A stretch of 35,962 nucleotides of DNA from a virus. The notes beneath the pieces were generated by a model. It searched no databases. It saw only the letters and a list, made by a program, of their open reading frames with translations, and had not been told where the DNA came from. The position numbers and the translations under genes are program-made. The stretch is taken from IMG/VR virus record IMGVR_UViG_3300031623_000022, positions 1-35,962 of that record; one strand, written 5' to 3'. Shown here one piece after another: positions 24,719 through 31,646 of this stretch; the first letter of the stretch is position 1, and each line of letters begins with the position of its first letter.

Positions 24719-25699
24719 TCAAGCCGACTCTGTTTCAGTCTTTTTACGATTACGAATCATAGCAAGAATTTCATCTGCACTTTTGTTATTGCCAGATGTT
24801 TCCTCACTAACTGTTTCTGTTACAGTTTCAGATTCAGTTGTATCGCTTGCTGTAACCGCCACTGTTTCAGTTTGAGCAACTTGTGCAACTTGTACAGTTT
24901 CAGTTTTCGTTGATGCTGAGACACCATATGGACGATAATGATCGCTCCATTTTGCTGGGTCATACAGTTCACCATCTACAGATGCCTGAAACATGTCATA
25001 AATTACTTTCACACCATCAGCTGATGGCCTCTTTGGAAGATAATCATTTAAAGTAAACAAACCATGTGCACTAACAGAAGTTAATTCATCTTCCGATAAA
25101 CTTCGTTCTCGTCGTGCCCAGTTTGATGTTGAATAATCAGCATACTGACCTTTTTGTGTCTTAGTAAGACGGAAATCAGTTCCTGCTGTATAATCAGTTG
25201 GTAAATTTTCCATTTCTGGATCCATTAATGCCGCTTTGATAATCTTATAAATCGAAGGATTTATAACAAAACGCCTAATGGGATTTTCTGGAGTTGCGTC
25301 ACCTTCCAATGGATTATTTACAACAAATCCTTGAAAGATGTATGAACGCTTTTTCCAATACTTACGTCCGATATCCTCAAGTGCTGGATCTTTGAACCAT
25401 GGACGAATTTCTGCGTGTACTGGACAAGTCTCGCCCCACATTTCTATACACGGTACGTTTACCGTAATAGGTTTTGCTTCGTCCTGTCCTTTCACACCTG
25501 GAAAAGGCATACGAATCATTTGGCGCTCTTGCCAAAAGAATGTATTGCTTTCGTCCCCATCGGGAAGAAATCGTAATGTTGCTGTAGTATCGCTAGGGAT
25601 ATTCCAAAACGCATAAATTGCGTTATCTGTTTCGCGAGTACCAGTCTGACGCTGGTCCTGTGCCGCGAGTTTTGCTCTTAACTCTGCCAATGTAGCCAT
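24719..25699 (-). CDS. gp32: gp32 single-stranded DNA-binding protein
   Basis: 326 residues (T4 gp32 301). N-terminal basic cooperativity region (MATLAELRAKLAAQDQR), then an OB-type core with a zinc knuckle at C84, C92 and H95 (PCIEMWGETCPVH) and aromatic DNA-contact residues (YAFWNIP, YWKKRSYIFQGF). The C-terminal 70 residues are Thr/Glu/Val-rich and acidic, the partner-recruiting tail. It coats single strands during replication and recombination. A roughly 60-nt AT-rich leader with an inverted repeat (TTAATTAAGTTATACTTAAT) may be the autoregulatory binding site, as known for T4 gp32. AAAGGAG precedes the ATG. Confidence 0.92.
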   Translation of the reverse strand: MATLAELRAKLAAQDQRQTGTRETDNAIYAFWNIPSDTTATLRFLPDGDESNTFFWQERQMIRMPFPGVKGQDEAKPITVNVPCIEMWGETCPVHAEIRPWFKDPALEDIGRKYWKKRSYIFQGFVVNNPLEGDATPENPIRRFVINPSIYKIIKAALMDPEMENLPTDYTAGTDFRLTKTQKGQYADYSTSNWARRERSLSEDELTSVSAHGLFTLNDYLPKRPSADGVKVIYDMFQASVDGELYDPAKWSDHYRPYGVSASTKTETVQVAQVAQTETVAVTASDTTESETVTETVSEETSGNNKSADEILAMIRNRKKTETESA

Positions 25700-25761: not shown

Positions 25762-25790
25762 ATTATAGTATCTAATTGAACAAATGTCAA
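25762..25790 (-). promoter_or_regulatory. Strong early sigma-70 promoter of gp32 operon
   Basis: TTGACA (25785-25790), 17-bp spacer, TATAAT (25762-25767), all perfect. A late octamer GATAAATA on the same strand lies further up at 25829-25836, so gp32 may be made both early and late. Confidence 0.85.
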
Positions 25791-25811: not shown

Positions 25812-25819
25812 AATAAATA
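25812..25819 (+). promoter_or_regulatory. Probable late promoter of the radical SAM cassette
   Basis: AATAAATA on the plus strand, 31 nt before the radical SAM ATG, in a divergent region shared with gp32. A minus-strand GATAAATA lies at 25829-25836. Confidence 0.45.
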
Positions 25820-25840
25820 TTATATAGGTATTTATCTTAC

Positions 25841-25858
25841 ATGTCAACATATGAATAA
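25841..25858 (+). CDS. Five-codon leader ORF overlapping the radical SAM start
   Basis: ATG TCA ACA TAT GAA TAA (25841-25858) overlaps the radical SAM ATG (25851) in another frame. The main gene has no Shine-Dalgarno, and a similar leader frame precedes the SET gene, so coupled reinitiation is possible. It could be chance. Confidence 0.25.
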   Translation: MSTYE

Positions 25859-27074
25859 GAAACATTTCTGCTACATACCATTTGATGGTATTACAATCGA
25901 TCCGCGAGGTCTTGCTCAATTATGTCCTGTCTGGTCAGATGAGGCAGACCACAGTCTACATGACTTTACAAAATCAAGTACTACAATAGAAAACATATTC
26001 TATGGTGATCGTATAAAAGAGATTAGAGAAAAAATGCTTAACGATGAATATATTGACGCATGTAATTATTGTTATAGCAAAGAAAAACACAATCTAGAAA
26101 GTAAACGACTAAAATATGCTAATGGGAGGATACGCCTACCAACCGATATTGAACCAAAAATTAAATATCTCGATATTAGTTTTAGTAATCAATGTAACCT
26201 TGCTTGTGCTATGTGCAACAGCATTCACAGTTCTCATTGGCATCAACAAGAAAAGTCTATGCCGCCAAAAGCAGTTAATGCACTAAAAACACATTACAAC
26301 TATAACCAATTTAAACCAGTTGTATTACAAAAGGAAGTACTTGAGTCAATATTAGATAACATTAACGATTTGGAATTACTAATTATAAAAGGTGGCGAGC
26401 CTTTGTACGATAAAAATTGTTTAACTTTCTTAGACAAAATCAGCAAAGTAAAACCAACTCTCAAAATAAGAATGGTTAGCAACATAACATCCATACCTAA
26501 AAAAACTTTAGAAATTTTTGATAAACTAAAAGATATAGAAATTTTTGCCAGCATCGACGGCATACATAGAACATACGAATGGATACGTGGTACAAACTTT
26601 AATAACATTGACAAAAACTTTCAAGTATTACTAAATCATCCAAACATAACACTACTTGGTATTAACTTTGTATTAAGCATATACAATGTTGGTAACATGA
26701 TTAATACTTTTAACTATTTTTCAAAGTATCAAAATAAAATTTTTGATAGCAATAGCATAAATGTATATCCAGCAGTACAACCATACTTGTCTGCTAACTT
26801 ACTATTAGAAGAACACAAAGAAGTAACATTTAAAAACATAATAAAAGAAGTACAAGAAAATGTTTTTAAAATTAGTCCAATAGAAATACAAAGTATTGAG
26901 AATATAATTTTTAATGTTAAAGATCCGTTTCCTGTAATGAGCAGAAAAGAAAATACATATAATGAACATCAAGCATTTGTTGAATTTACTAATTGGATGG
27001 ACACTGTTCGTAAATTTAATATACAAGACGAACACCAGTACATAAGAGAAATAATGAATTATGCCAATACCTGA
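25851..27074 (+). CDS. Radical SAM enzyme with extra Cys cluster (twitch/SPASM-like)
   Basis: I choose ATG 25851 (MNKKHFCYIPFDGITIDPRG), giving 407 residues; the frame is open to 25776 but that part covers the divergent promoters. The radical SAM [4Fe-4S] motif C-x3-C-x2-C is C115, C119 and C122 (CNLACAMC), with the SAM-binding GGEP at 181-184. Before it, C7, C25, C71 and C74 (DACNYCYSKE) are placed as in proteins with an auxiliary cluster, here N-terminal. Such enzymes modify peptides, nucleotides or sugars by radical chemistry; the substrate is not evident. It overlaps the PLP gene by 14 nt, so the two are made together. It lies opposite to all nearby genes, which suggests a gained cassette. 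Confidence 0.85.
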   Translation: MNKKHFCYIPFDGITIDPRGLAQLCPVWSDEADHSLHDFTKSSTTIENIFYGDRIKEIREKMLNDEYIDACNYCYSKEKHNLESKRLKYANGRIRLPTDIEPKIKYLDISFSNQCNLACAMCNSIHSSHWHQQEKSMPPKAVNALKTHYNYNQFKPVVLQKEVLESILDNINDLELLIIKGGEPLYDKNCLTFLDKISKVKPTLKIRMVSNITSIPKKTLEIFDKLKDIEIFASIDGIHRTYEWIRGTNFNNIDKNFQVLLNHPNITLLGINFVLSIYNVGNMINTFNYFSKYQNKIFDSNSINVYPAVQPYLSANLLLEEHKEVTFKNIIKEVQENVFKISPIEIQSIENIIFNVKDPFPVMSRKENTYNEHQAFVEFTNWMDTVRKFNIQDEHQYIREIMNYANT

Positions 27075-28020
27075 TATTACAATATTAAATAGCCTAATAG
27101 ACAGAGAACCCGGTTCTCGTAAACGACCTATGTTTGATTCAGAAGTACATAAGTTTCATAATACTTTACATAATACTATGAGATTTGACAATTTTAAAAA
27201 CATTACAACAGGCGATACTGAAGATTACAATACAATAACAGAACTATTCAAAGAAAAAACACATAAATGGATATGTGATCACAAACTAATATCATTTACA
27301 GGGTTAGATGCCTTTCCAGATAGAGATATATGCTTAGGAGTAACACATCAAATAGATGAACTCCACATGATGCACAATAAAAAAATAGTAATATTTGATG
27401 GTGACTATGCTTACCATCGTAGATTGTTCCCTAGTATTAATAAAAGAACAGTTGATACACTTGCAACTGGTGATGTATTAGTTATAGCAACACCTTTTAC
27501 ATTCTATAATAACGATGTTCATCCTGAAATGACAAAGATTTTAGAAAAATGCTTACAACTAAAAATTCCCGTACACATTGATGCGGCATGGTATTCTTGT
27601 TGTAAGGATATTAACTTTAATGTAGATCATCCTGCTATTAAAACAGTAACATTTTCGTTAAGTAAAGCATTTGGGATGAATTTACATCGTATAGGATTGC
27701 GTTATTCTCGAAAACGAGAAAATGGACCTATACTTTTAATGAATGATTTTAAATATGTTAATATTGCAGATGTATGGGTAGGTTTAGAATTTATGCAACA
27801 CTTTGGTACTGACTTTTGGTGGCGCAAATACGAAAAACATTATAATACAATAATACAACATTGTGATTTAGCATATAGCAAAGCAATACACACAGCACAA
27901 TCGCTTGATAAAGATGGCAATATTATTAGGCCTGTACCTATGCGACATGCGTTATTATATATGGAATACGGTGTTATTCCGAATCAAGATCCGACTCAAC
28001 CACTTCCATATCAGCTTTAA
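27061..28020 (+). CDS. PLP-dependent aminotransferase-fold protein
   Basis: 319 residues. Fold-type I PLP features: the pyridine-nitrogen Asp in PVHIDAAWYS (D174) and the Schiff-base lysine in TFSLSKAFG (K202), followed by a backing Arg-rich strand (HRIGLRYSRKRE). It is somewhat short for the family (about 380-420), missing part of the C-terminal small domain. The reaction may be transamination, decarboxylation or aldol-type; substrate unknown. Start overlaps the radical SAM stop by 14 nt (ATGCCAATACCTGA). The final 47 nt overlap the oppositely oriented tagged gene at 27974-28330. Confidence 0.8.
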   Translation: MPIPDITILNSLIDREPGSRKRPMFDSEVHKFHNTLHNTMRFDNFKNITTGDTEDYNTITELFKEKTHKWICDHKLISFTGLDAFPDRDICLGVTHQIDELHMMHNKKIVIFDGDYAYHRRLFPSINKRTVDTLATGDVLVIATPFTFYNNDVHPEMTKILEKCLQLKIPVHIDAAWYSCCKDINFNVDHPAIKTVTFSLSKAFGMNLHRIGLRYSRKRENGPILLMNDFKYVNIADVWVGLEFMQHFGTDFWWRKYEKHYNTIIQHCDLAYSKAIHTAQSLDKDGNIIRPVPMRHALLYMEYGVIPNQDPTQPLPYQL

Positions 28021-28330
28021 CCTTTGGAAACGGTGCATGATCGGGCATATCGTCGTTAACATCAAACATTAATTCTTTTATACGAGAGAATGTTTCATCT
28101 TTGGGCGTAATCTTACCATGTAAAATTGAGTCATTGTGCCAGTCAGCAAGTATATCATGTGTATCTGCTTCAACTACTTGCCATTCTTTAATAGAATTGG
28201 CCATAATTGCATCAATTATATCTTTTTTAGTATCAGCAGACCATTGATGCCCAGGTCTAGTATGATCTAAAATAATATATTGACCAAACTCAACATCAAT
28301 TGCTTCGTTTATTAAATCAAAAATTCTCAT
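27974..28330 (-). CDS. Hypothetical protein with capsid-tag-like N-terminus
   Basis: 118 residues starting MRIFDLINEAIDVEFGQ; I-N-E followed by Ala (7-10) is the clearest match in the window to the T4 internal-protein tag and cut (MKTYQEFIAE, cut after E). The rest is acidic with a Trp/His-containing centre (HTRPGHQWSADTKKDIID). A perfect late octamer TATAAATA lies 5 nt before the ATG. Its 3' end runs 47 nt into the PLP gene on the other strand. Confidence 0.7.
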   Translation of the reverse strand: MRIFDLINEAIDVEFGQYIILDHTRPGHQWSADTKKDIIDAIMANSIKEWQVVEADTHDILADWHNDSILHGKITPKDETFSRIKELMFDVNDDMPDHAPFPKVKADMEVVESDLDSE

Positions 28331-28335
28331 AATAA

Positions 28336-28343
28336 TATTTATA
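28336..28343 (-). promoter_or_regulatory. Late promoter TATAAATA (perfect), leaderless type
   Basis: TATAAATA, TTATT, ATG: 5 nt to the start at 28328-28330. Exact T4 late consensus; it overlaps the stop region of the PcfJ-domain gene. Confidence 0.8.
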
Positions 28344-29595
28344 TTCCTGCTAAATGTTTAATACGATTTAAATCAGCAGACTCGGTATGTTCGCGATCAT
28401 CATCATAATCTGGGTGGAATGGCATATCCTTTGTGTTACCAGCAGGACCAAATGTTTCAGGATGTTGTGTAAAAAAGTCATTTAATTTTTCAATATATGG
28501 TCCGTATTTTTCAACAGGTGGTTTGTTTTGTTTGCCTAATGCTGAATCTGGCTCTATATTACTCATATCTACATTTGGATCGTATTCTGCAGATATATGA
28601 GACTCTCCATGTTTATCGCGCAAACTATAAACTAAATGACCATCGGTTAATTCTTCATCATCATCGTCATCAGCATCTCTAATTTGATCTACCATCCACT
28701 CGAATGCGTGTTCTTCCTCATAACCCAATATATCTTCCAGAGCGTACGACAATTGAGGATCGACCTCACCATCATTTATTTTATTGGCAATAAAATCTTG
28801 AACATCTGTGTCATTCTCTTCTAGCCATTCTAAAAGCCACTCATAAGCCGAGTCGTCAGTCTGATCTTCAAAGTCGACATAAGCATTAAATGTATCTCTT
28901 AATCCTAGAGTTAAATCTCCCTGTTCGCCAACTGGACAATAACCACTAATGCAATTCTGCATCATGTCGCCTTCGCGTTTCATTTCTTCTTGTGAGTCTA
29001 ACCTTACCCATTTAGAACCATTTTTAAACTTCATTATAACTGGTGCTTCGGCTTCGACACGCCGTCTTTCTGCTGAATCGTGTTTCCATTTTTGAGCACC
29101 TAATTGAGTCATAACTTTCATTGCGTCTTCTAGGCCTGGCAAATCAAATTTACCTTGTTCGTATTTCTTTTTAATAGGAAGGAGTTTATTTGCAATATGT
29201 GGATCTAATGTTTTTGCATCTTTAACTAAATTATGAAATTTATAAAACAATGGATTACTAGTAGGTTCACCGTCATCAGGTATAAAAAGATCAAGCATAT
29301 TGTTATAGAAAGAATCTAATACGTCTTTATTTACTGTATATACATCTGAGGCATTTTTAATAAAATCTGGATCTGTTTCTTTAGGTTTATACGGTTTTAG
29401 TGGCGTGGATACCTCGGGGTACATAATTGGCTTATTATTAATGATATCTTTTCTTAATCTTTTTAGAAAAGCAGTGTGATTAATACCAGGGTTAGAATCT
29501 TCTAAATCCTCACCCATTTCATGAATCCATTTGTCAAGGAGGTCTAAACCTTTTGGCTCAACGTTAGCCTCTAATATTATATCTTCGACTAACAT
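28339..29595 (-). CDS. PcfJ-domain protein with both shared tags
   Basis: 418 residues. N-terminal tag MLVEDIILEA (I-L-E then A) and C-terminal ADLNRIKHLAGI. A PcfJ-like core occupies about 186-335: WVRLDSQEEMKREGDMMQNC, then SGYC and HLVYSLRDKHGESHISAEYD. PcfJ is a conjugation-plasmid/phage domain of unknown activity. An acidic Asp run lies near 307-315. AAGGAA lies upstream, and the gene follows the 679-residue gene by 11 nt. It is probably a virion or head-assembly protein. Confidence 0.65.
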   Translation of the reverse strand: MLVEDIILEANVEPKGLDLLDKWIHEMGEDLEDSNPGINHTAFLKRLRKDIINNKPIMYPEVSTPLKPYKPKETDPDFIKNASDVYTVNKDVLDSFYNNMLDLFIPDDGEPTSNPLFYKFHNLVKDAKTLDPHIANKLLPIKKKYEQGKFDLPGLEDAMKVMTQLGAQKWKHDSAERRRVEAEAPVIMKFKNGSKWVRLDSQEEMKREGDMMQNCISGYCPVGEQGDLTLGLRDTFNAYVDFEDQTDDSAYEWLLEWLEENDTDVQDFIANKINDGEVDPQLSYALEDILGYEEEHAFEWMVDQIRDADDDDDEELTDGHLVYSLRDKHGESHISAEYDPNVDMSNIEPDSALGKQNKPPVEKYGPYIEKLNDFFTQHPETFGPAGNTKDMPFHPDYDDDREHTESADLNRIKHLAGI

Positions 29596-29606
29596 AGTTT
29601 AATTCC

Positions 29607-31646
29607 TTATACACCTGCTAAATGCTTAACACGATCAAGTTCTATACTTTCTTCTACTTCATCGTCTTCTTCAGCATCAGCATCTTCTGTAGTTTCTTCC
29701 TTGTCGCCATTTTTAGCATCAAGCATTTTTTGGAAAGCTGCTTTTTGTGCTTCGCTTTGTGCTTCGTCTATTTGCTCTGCTTCGTCGTCGGCTTCGTCAT
29801 CTTCAATTACTGGCTCTATGCCTGCTAAATGCGTAACACGATCAAGCTCATCATTTGCAGGTGCTTCAGCTAGGATCCAACCATTTGCAAGATATTCATC
29901 TACTTGTGCTGTATCAATAACTAATACACCCTCATCCTTTTTATAAACTTTAGCATCGCTGCCGTCGCCTTTATACTGGCGTGGTTCGCCTTCGTTAATA
30001 ACATCTTCGCCACTTAATGCGGAATAAAGATCTTCTGCTTTAACATCGTATTCAAGTCCAACTTCTTCACACATGCCCTTAATCTTACGGATTAACGGTG
30101 ATCCATCACCCATACGAGGTAATGTACCCATGCGTTCTTTAGCAGTTGCTAATGCACGGTTAAAATCTACGAACGTATCTTCTGAAACTACTACTTCTTC
30201 AAATAGTGTTTTATCATCAGCAACAGACTCTACCCAGTCATTAAATATCTTGCTTTCCACCTCAGGTGGATCAAATTCATCTGGCATGTCTTCTGTATCC
30301 TGTTGTGTAAATTCATCAGCTGAATCATCAGCATCTGCTGAATCAGCCTTACCAAAAATACCTTGCTCATTTGCTTGGGTCATAATATTTTGTACAATGA
30401 TGCCAGCATCTGATTCGGAGTTAATACCCTTTTCTTCAAGTTTTGAAAGTGCTTCCATTGCATCATCATTATTTGAAATGTTACTTAAAAACGAAGATAG
30501 CAAATCATCTTCTATTAAGCTTGCAAGTTCTCTAACTTTATATCCATATTCATACTTTGGCTCTGAAAAATTAAGTATGTTAGCACTTGCATATTCGTCT
30601 TGTGCCCCTGAAGGCTCATGGAATGATACATTCTCTGACTTTTGTATAAGCGATGGTATATCTTTTAACTTTTCACCGGATGATCTTTTTGCATCCTTTG
30701 ACAATCTATATTCAAGAATTTGAGAAATTAATGGCAATGTTTCTTCTAGTGATTCATCAAATGTTTTGGCAGTAAACATATTACGAAGTTCTGTAACTTT
30801 ATCATCAGTTGCTTCATATGCATCTTCTTGAATAGCACTTACTTGTTCTGTGTATCCTCTAACACTTGTTAGACGACTTAAATTCTTTCTAATATCTTGA
30901 TAGCGATCTTTGATTGCTTCAATAATATTTGATGTTTCTTCGTTGACAACATTATTAGATTTTGCATATCGCATAAAGCGTTGCAATTTTTTATAATCTT
31001 CAGACAACTTTGCAACATGACTACCAACTGAATCATATGGAGTACCTCCCATACTTACGTGGCGTGCCATTGCTCTAGCGCCTGCTAAATGTATATGTGG
31101 ATATTGAAATCTTTCTCCGGCTCCATTTTCTATAAATAAAGCCTTAATATTCCTACTCCGGGATCCACGTACCGTTTCGTCTACTGGTTTTAAATGTCTC
31201 ACAATTAACTTTACATTGTCATCTACCAATTGGTAACTTGACTTTGTACTGCCAGCCATTGAAGACATACCTTCTGCCATTTGTTTCATTGCTAATTCCT
31301 CATCGTTTATTGATTTGATTGCCTGGTGCACATAGTCTTTTGGTTTTAAAGAATGTCCAAATGATTTAAAATCAAAATTTAATCTATACTTGCGTGATAA
31401 ATTTTTTAAAGTTGAATGTAAATTTTCTATTTCTGCTAGCTCAACAGTATCTGGTTTATGTAATTTAAGGATTGCATCCTCTTCACTTATAGTAACCATT
31501 ATATTCGATGGCTTTAGAAAAAATCTACGTGCTTCCCTGTCATCTAATGTTTGATCACCTTGCTCAGTGAACATCTCTAATCGATAACCGGAACCTTTTA
31601 TAACTTTACGGACCTCAGAGGCCACATTCTCTATGCTTATACCCAT
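29607..31646 (-). CDS. Large acidic head/virion protein with two LAG motifs
   Basis: 679 residues. The N-terminal 150 residues are mixed; the middle is helical (LSEDYKKLQRFMRYAKSNNV); the C-terminal 250 residues are very acidic and low complexity. The shared motif occurs twice, ELDRVTHLAGIEP (about 608-620) and the C-terminal ELDRVKHLAGV. Late octamer 6 nt before the ATG. Size, acidity and late expression next to terminase suggest a scaffold, portal-associated or internal head protein; no family recognised. Confidence 0.6.
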   Translation of the reverse strand: MGISIENVASEVRKVIKGSGYRLEMFTEQGDQTLDDREARRFFLKPSNIMVTISEEDAILKLHKPDTVELAEIENLHSTLKNLSRKYRLNFDFKSFGHSLKPKDYVHQAIKSINDEELAMKQMAEGMSSMAGSTKSSYQLVDDNVKLIVRHLKPVDETVRGSRSRNIKALFIENGAGERFQYPHIHLAGARAMARHVSMGGTPYDSVGSHVAKLSEDYKKLQRFMRYAKSNNVVNEETSNIIEAIKDRYQDIRKNLSRLTSVRGYTEQVSAIQEDAYEATDDKVTELRNMFTAKTFDESLEETLPLISQILEYRLSKDAKRSSGEKLKDIPSLIQKSENVSFHEPSGAQDEYASANILNFSEPKYEYGYKVRELASLIEDDLLSSFLSNISNNDDAMEALSKLEEKGINSESDAGIIVQNIMTQANEQGIFGKADSADADDSADEFTQQDTEDMPDEFDPPEVESKIFNDWVESVADDKTLFEEVVVSEDTFVDFNRALATAKERMGTLPRMGDGSPLIRKIKGMCEEVGLEYDVKAEDLYSALSGEDVINEGEPRQYKGDGSDAKVYKKDEGVLVIDTAQVDEYLANGWILAEAPANDELDRVTHLAGIEPVIEDDEADDEAEQIDEAQSEAQKAAFQKMLDAKNGDKEETTEDADAEEDDEVEESIELDRVKHLAGV

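Follow-up and report, generated by a model that had tools for sequence, protein, structure and literature searches.

A radical SAM–PLP gene cassette beside gp32 in a T4-like ocean phage and its possible role in a nitrogen-containing surface decoration

We propose, with a probability of about 0.4, that a two-gene cassette of a T4-like ocean phage is a two-enzyme module in which a radical SAM protein (rSAM) would oxidize carbon and a PLP enzyme would then carry out amino transfer or decarboxylation on behalf of a small molecule or sugar of the virion or cell surface. The PLP family repeatedly occurs beside carbon-oxidizing enzymes, and late in infection the pair thus probably synthesizes or adds a decoration that contains nitrogen. 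The window analyzed, that is, the whole stretch of 35,962 bases, is an entire IMG/VR record of a virus that infects bacteria in the ocean. A biosynthetic or modifying pathway had been suggested in a first-pass annotation, and the present analysis supports this suggestion together with the enzyme classes, the motifs and the T4-like context named there.

The cassette and its surroundings comprise the following features.

24719..25699, minus strand: gp32-like ssDNA-binding protein, the divergent left neighbor of the cassette
25762..25790, minus strand: sigma-70-type promoter of gp32 (TTGACA-N17-TATAAT), common to cassette-bearing and empty-site phages with small variations
25813..25819, plus strand: ATAAATA element, a candidate late promoter, 38 nt before the rSAM ATG
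25819..25847, minus strand: second TTGACA-N17-TATAAT, which points to gp32 from inside the cassette-specific leader; a candidate tandem promoter
25851..27074, plus strand: rSAM gene (ATG at 25851, stop at 27074; 407 aa)
27061..28020, plus strand: PLP gene (319 aa), encoding a small fold-type-I PLP enzyme
27974..28330, minus strand: p118 (118 aa), the convergent right neighbor, kept with or without the cassette

The rSAM and PLP frames share 14 nt (27061-27074). The overlap noted in the first-pass annotation is therefore genuine, but the genes are separate ORFs and not a fusion. The 3' end of the PLP gene in turn overlaps the p118 gene by 47 nt. Minus-strand genes continue on both sides. The gp32 side carries UvsX and UvsY, and the p118 side carries a protein of 418 aa with weak similarity to PcfJ, a virion protein of 679 aa and the large terminase, which is closest (about 50%) to its counterparts in the PA5oct/MIJ3 group and in Sinorhizobium phage Phosso. 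The cassette had been described as running against all surrounding genes, which is nearly true but not fully right because a second conserved gene (15891-16268, 125 aa) also occupies the plus strand. This second gene is 37-85% conserved across many related phages, including L096-L098 and the record of L144.

The rSAM protein belongs to the NCBIfam family NF033640 (N_Twi_rSAM), which it matches at 234.7 bits (E=1.8e-69; curated cut-off, 170) over practically its full length (residues 4-395 of 407; model positions 2-391 of 398), and it also exceeds the PF04055 cut-off. The family name, however, specifies no reaction, and the family is defined without a PLP partner. C115, C119 and C122 form the CX3CX2C triad of the SAM cluster, a GGEP motif is located at 181-184, and C7, C25, C71 and C74 are the predicted ligands of an auxiliary cluster. 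The triad, the GGEP motif and the four extra N-terminal cysteines were all anticipated by the first-pass annotation, and the seven cysteines are invariant or nearly so in the family alignment (A7), in which the GGEP motif is conserved too. Positions 6-83 of the family profile align with the twitch domain of BtrN. In the structure model (pLDDT 86.3), the closest folds are SuiB and SkfB, followed by viperin, BlsE and MoaA. A tblastn search of cultured phages with the rSAM protein at 1e-5 gave no match; searches of PDB sequences with the single rSAM or PLP protein returned only noise, and profiles were required.

Pfam yields no match to the PLP protein, and no NCBIfam model reaches its cut-off. 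It fails PF00155 (aminotransferase class I/II), which recognizes 7 of 24 family members at best with 3.2e-5. Nonetheless, all 24 aligned members (A6) retain D174, K202 and R210, of which K202 would be the Schiff-base lysine, D174 the aspartate to the pyridine nitrogen and R210 the phosphate-side arginine, and the structure model (pLDDT 87.4) adopts fold type I with aminotransferase and decarboxylase relatives. These observations bear out the earlier fold-type-I assignment based on D174 and K202, and they place the protein among PLP-enzyme folds outside the curated families. Its closest folds are CobD, HisC and NifS-type structures (TM about 0.5). By eye, the C-terminal motif of the PLP clade that is partnered with 2OG enzymes reads RVCIS, similar to the carboxylate-binding arginine of aminotransferases, and is replaced by V-[GP]-x-[RK]-x-x-L in the rSAM-partnered clade. 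Because an AAT-type substrate arginine motif is not obvious in the rSAM-partnered subfamily, transamination is the presumed rather than the demonstrated reaction type.

Locus comparison indicates that the cassette was inserted between gp32 and p118, behind the promoter of gp32; the cassette-specific sequence begins just past the promoter at 25762-25790. The comparison of relatives recommended in the first-pass annotation yields four forms of this site. In the sister phages L021-L027, whose gp32 is 76-78% identical, p118 adjoins gp32 with no gene between them, and the site is empty. L144 (107.5 kb) carries the rSAM gene (about 70%) at the gp32 site without the PLP gene, and no PLP homolog is found in its whole record; thus, the rSAM need not depend on the PLP partner. 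Both genes are present in the window, L002, L003 and L007, and also in L029, where they are more diverged (rSAM, 53%; PLP, 64%). In L008, a cobalamin-binding rSAM (PF04055 + PF02310; 9229-10656 of contig 3300003702_000017) is inserted between the two genes. The L008 contig also contains a PhyH-type oxygenase near uvsX. Both cassette genes are under purifying selection (NG86 dN/dS 0.09-0.22), similar to gp32. Family scores, selection and same-site homologs in several contigs confirm, at the sequence level, that the cassette is real and not a product of chance. The catalytic cysteines and lysine, whose loss from all relatives was envisaged in the first-pass annotation as an argument against its reading, are conserved, and none of the known cofactor pathways was found to match the two genes together.

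When would the cassette be transcribed? In the 107-kb relative L144, no 7-mer upstream of genes is more enriched than ATAAATA (24 of 86, about 15-fold), and the genes that carry it 25-42 nt upstream include virion genes such as those of the portal, the tail tube and the head-tail adaptor. In this relative, the element also stands upstream of the rSAM gene, at 28 nt from the ATG, and it is retained throughout the aligned cassette phages. Because ATAAATA precedes both virion genes and the rSAM gene, the cassette is probably transcribed late, a call that depends on a single 7-mer. Both TTGACA-N17-TATAAT elements are perfect, and the overlap of the outer one (25819-25847) with a near-palindrome, ATAAATA...TATTTAT, hints at a late promoter that acts in both directions. 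Matches to TATAAATA also precede p118 and terL, but they were discounted since each overlaps the end of the upstream gene.

The rSAM–PLP pair also occurs away from gp32. The copies of L147 and L096-L098 (rSAM, 40-43%; PLP, 47-52%) are found close to a DnaB-type helicase, and after the pair come a second rSAM and an FAD/NAD-binding reductase, which is a plausible electron donor. Among 21 PLP clusters, 13 contain an A7-type rSAM within 3 kb, and in 8 the two genes are directly adjacent; the PLP gene directly adjoins an NF033640-type rSAM in L093, L095, L098, L100, L101, L102, L117 and L147. In total, 41 rSAM genes are found in 363 kb around PLP genes versus 2 in 622 kb from 69 cassette-free gp32 loci. 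The other PLP clades mostly adjoin a 2OG Asp/Arg-hydroxylase-like gene, some of these assignments being motif readings by eye, and a Mosig-like clade adjoins a fatty-acid-desaturase-like (diiron desaturase) gene; L099 and L118 have no recognized partner directly beside the PLP gene. Partner type tracks the PLP tree, with 3 changes compared to 8.7 when shuffled. The common theme appears to be a PLP enzyme beside an enzyme that would oxidize an unactivated carbon. GDP-mannose dehydratase/epimerase and DegT-type genes are located near some PLP genes, and TPP-enzyme genes are located near others. Several cluster genes have no Pfam match, and the amidinotransferase-like gene of cluster 4 and the acetyltransferase-like gene of cluster 5 were assigned by eye only. 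Amidinotransferase-like sequences, likewise read by eye, lie near PLP genes at L116:7230-8291 and L099:8139-9350, the latter without a Pfam match, hinting at guanidino-amino-acid chemistry in some clusters.

The PLP family looks close to virus-restricted within the sampled records. A single match was obtained among 50,697 phage records, in Pelagibacter phage Mosig EXVC030M (host HTCC1062; 28%), and a genome-contig scan likewise gave one, a 7.8-kb contig from G022 that contains a DnaB-type helicase and the rSAM–PLP module. Two bacterial draws (369 and 398 genomes) returned only this phage-like contig and one weak 40-bit match (386-aa frame). L147 (PAHB01000063.1), a MAG contig from a Proteobacteria bin with a phage-like DnaB-type helicase and the module, probably represents phage sequence that was placed in a bacterial bin. 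We considered a cellular source for the PLP enzyme but rejected it, the sole genome-contig match being interpreted as phage DNA assigned to a MAG. Given its near confinement to viruses, the family may represent a chemistry that arose in viruses or was retained by them alone. In Mosig, the putative aminotransferase Mosig_00079 has the same fold-I motifs as the family, but its modification cluster, beside tail-fiber genes, contains a desaturase and Asp/Arg hydroxylases as PLP partners, and NF033640 has no match in the Mosig genome.

T4-like phages rich in rSAM genes have been reported before, including Campylobacter phages CP220/CPt10, a marine genome with 12 rSAM genes and pelagimyophage cassettes (PMC2853527, PMC5332604, PMC7029224), and like the present phages, they carry multiple rSAM genes in exchangeable cassettes. 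The accounts of these genes in the three reports describe rSAM genes and not an rSAM–PLP module or the present PLP family. Among viruses of the type studied here, NF033640 matches reach 12 in a single record, which agrees with those reports, and many NF033640 genes are orphans without a PLP partner. Accordingly, the rarity in T4-like phages that had been ascribed to the pair holds for the pair in cultured phages but not for rSAM genes as such. The rSAM cassettes are already known; the partnership with a nearly virus-only PLP family that swaps oxidase partners is the new element.

How could the two enzymes cooperate? The sequences establish the two genes, their active-site residues, their co-inheritance and selection, and the recurrence of the pair and its association with other C-H oxidizing enzymes; late timing, the order of the reactions, the type of PLP reaction, the substrate and its destination are inferred. 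The twitch rSAM would generate a 5'-deoxyadenosyl radical and use it to abstract hydrogen from a carbon that is not activated. Helped by the auxiliary FeS cluster, the rSAM would most likely oxidize this carbon in the manner of BtrN-type twitch dehydrogenases, which convert an alcohol into a ketone. Nitrogen chemistry by the PLP enzyme would follow on the rSAM product, the simplest case being transamination of the carbonyl just formed. Oxidation followed by transamination is the logic of butirosin biosynthesis, and in aminocyclitol formation a twitch rSAM (BtrN or SpeY) is followed by a PLP aminotransferase. The window rSAM shares the twitch auxiliary domain and would share this logic, but its twitch domain is N-terminal (permuted order), and cyclitol or sugar genes were not recognized beside the cassette. 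The substrate would most likely be a sugar, an amino acid or another small building block, and the product would end up on the virion or on the surface of the infected cell. The GDP-mannose dehydratase/epimerase and DegT-type neighbors and the position of the Mosig copy beside tail-fiber genes favor such a surface decoration. Against it, no sugar-nucleotide gene was recognized among the window genes scanned, the similarity to BtrN covers the auxiliary domain only, and the closest folds are peptide maturases.

The last point is also the starting point of a possible, if doubtful, alternative, in which a SuiB/SkfB-like rSAM maturase modifies a virion or host protein or a small peptide and the PLP enzyme acts as an aminotransferase or decarboxylase on the oxidized side chain or C-terminus. 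A peptide route of oxidation and then transamination is known from daptides (PMC10036551), and the late-type promoter element is common to virion genes. However, other rSAM folds score within two logs of SuiB and SkfB, the extra domain is a twitch rather than a recognized peptide-binding domain, and a search local to the cassette recognized no RiPP precursor peptide gene in the cassette or its 151-nt leader. An auxiliary metabolic role, by which the enzymes would alter the amino-acid, polyamine or cofactor pool of the host without a virion target, is unlikely: PLP relatives do occur near amidinotransferase-like, acetyltransferase-like (by eye) and TPP-enzyme genes, and HisC and CobD of primary metabolism are among the closest folds, but the late-type promoter element argues against it, and a borrowed metabolic enzyme would be odd because the PLP family is essentially absent from the 369- and 398-genome bacterial draws.

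Two further readings are harder to reconcile with the loci. That the genes are functionally independent passengers, adjacent by happenstance, would agree with the lone rSAM of L144 and the many orphan NF033640 genes; it is nevertheless improbable, given that the two genes adjoin at two separate loci and in diverged phages, that their frames overlap and that partner type agrees with the PLP tree. The first-pass annotation had drawn a parallel to thymidine hypermodification, and Pseudomonas phage M6 indeed encodes an rSAM and a PLP enzyme together. The M6 PLP enzyme, however, is a PALP of fold type II instead of fold type I, and BLASTP against the M6 PLP and rSAM enzymes detected no similarity (E 0.90 and 0.36). 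The ADDT gene was not found in the window or 19 related records (0 of 20), which is only suggestive since all but Mosig are IMG/VR records and possibly fragments; a ThyA-type HMdU synthase occurs in just one distant record among those scanned, again possibly fragments, and not in the window. With the M6 enzymes unrelated and their partner genes not recovered from the window and its close relatives, the parallel is not supported, and DNA hypermodification of this type is highly improbable.

Beyond the proposed surface decoration by the rSAM–PLP pair, we speculate, tentatively, that the small virus-born PLP family provides a general nitrogen-installing step behind interchangeable C-H oxidizing enzymes (twitch rSAM, 2OG Asp/Arg-hydroxylase-like or diiron desaturase), and that such modules might be used late to decorate the virion or host surface with non-canonical amines. 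The rSAM genes of T4-like phages have been tallied for years without being given a function. A conserved partner, a minimal two-gene version, natural presence/absence variants and a likely late promoter turn them into a testable two-enzyme problem.

The neighbors of the cassette on the p118 side share features of their own. Both p118 and the 418-aa protein (28339-29595) have N-terminal sequences, LINE/A and IILE/A, that resemble T4 prohead-protease sites, and the 418-aa and 679-aa (29607-31646) proteins have a common C-terminal tail, R-[IV]-K-H-L-A-G-[IV], that recurs in proteins of L029 and L007. Proteins with such N-termini or tails are possible capsid-targeting or internal head proteins.
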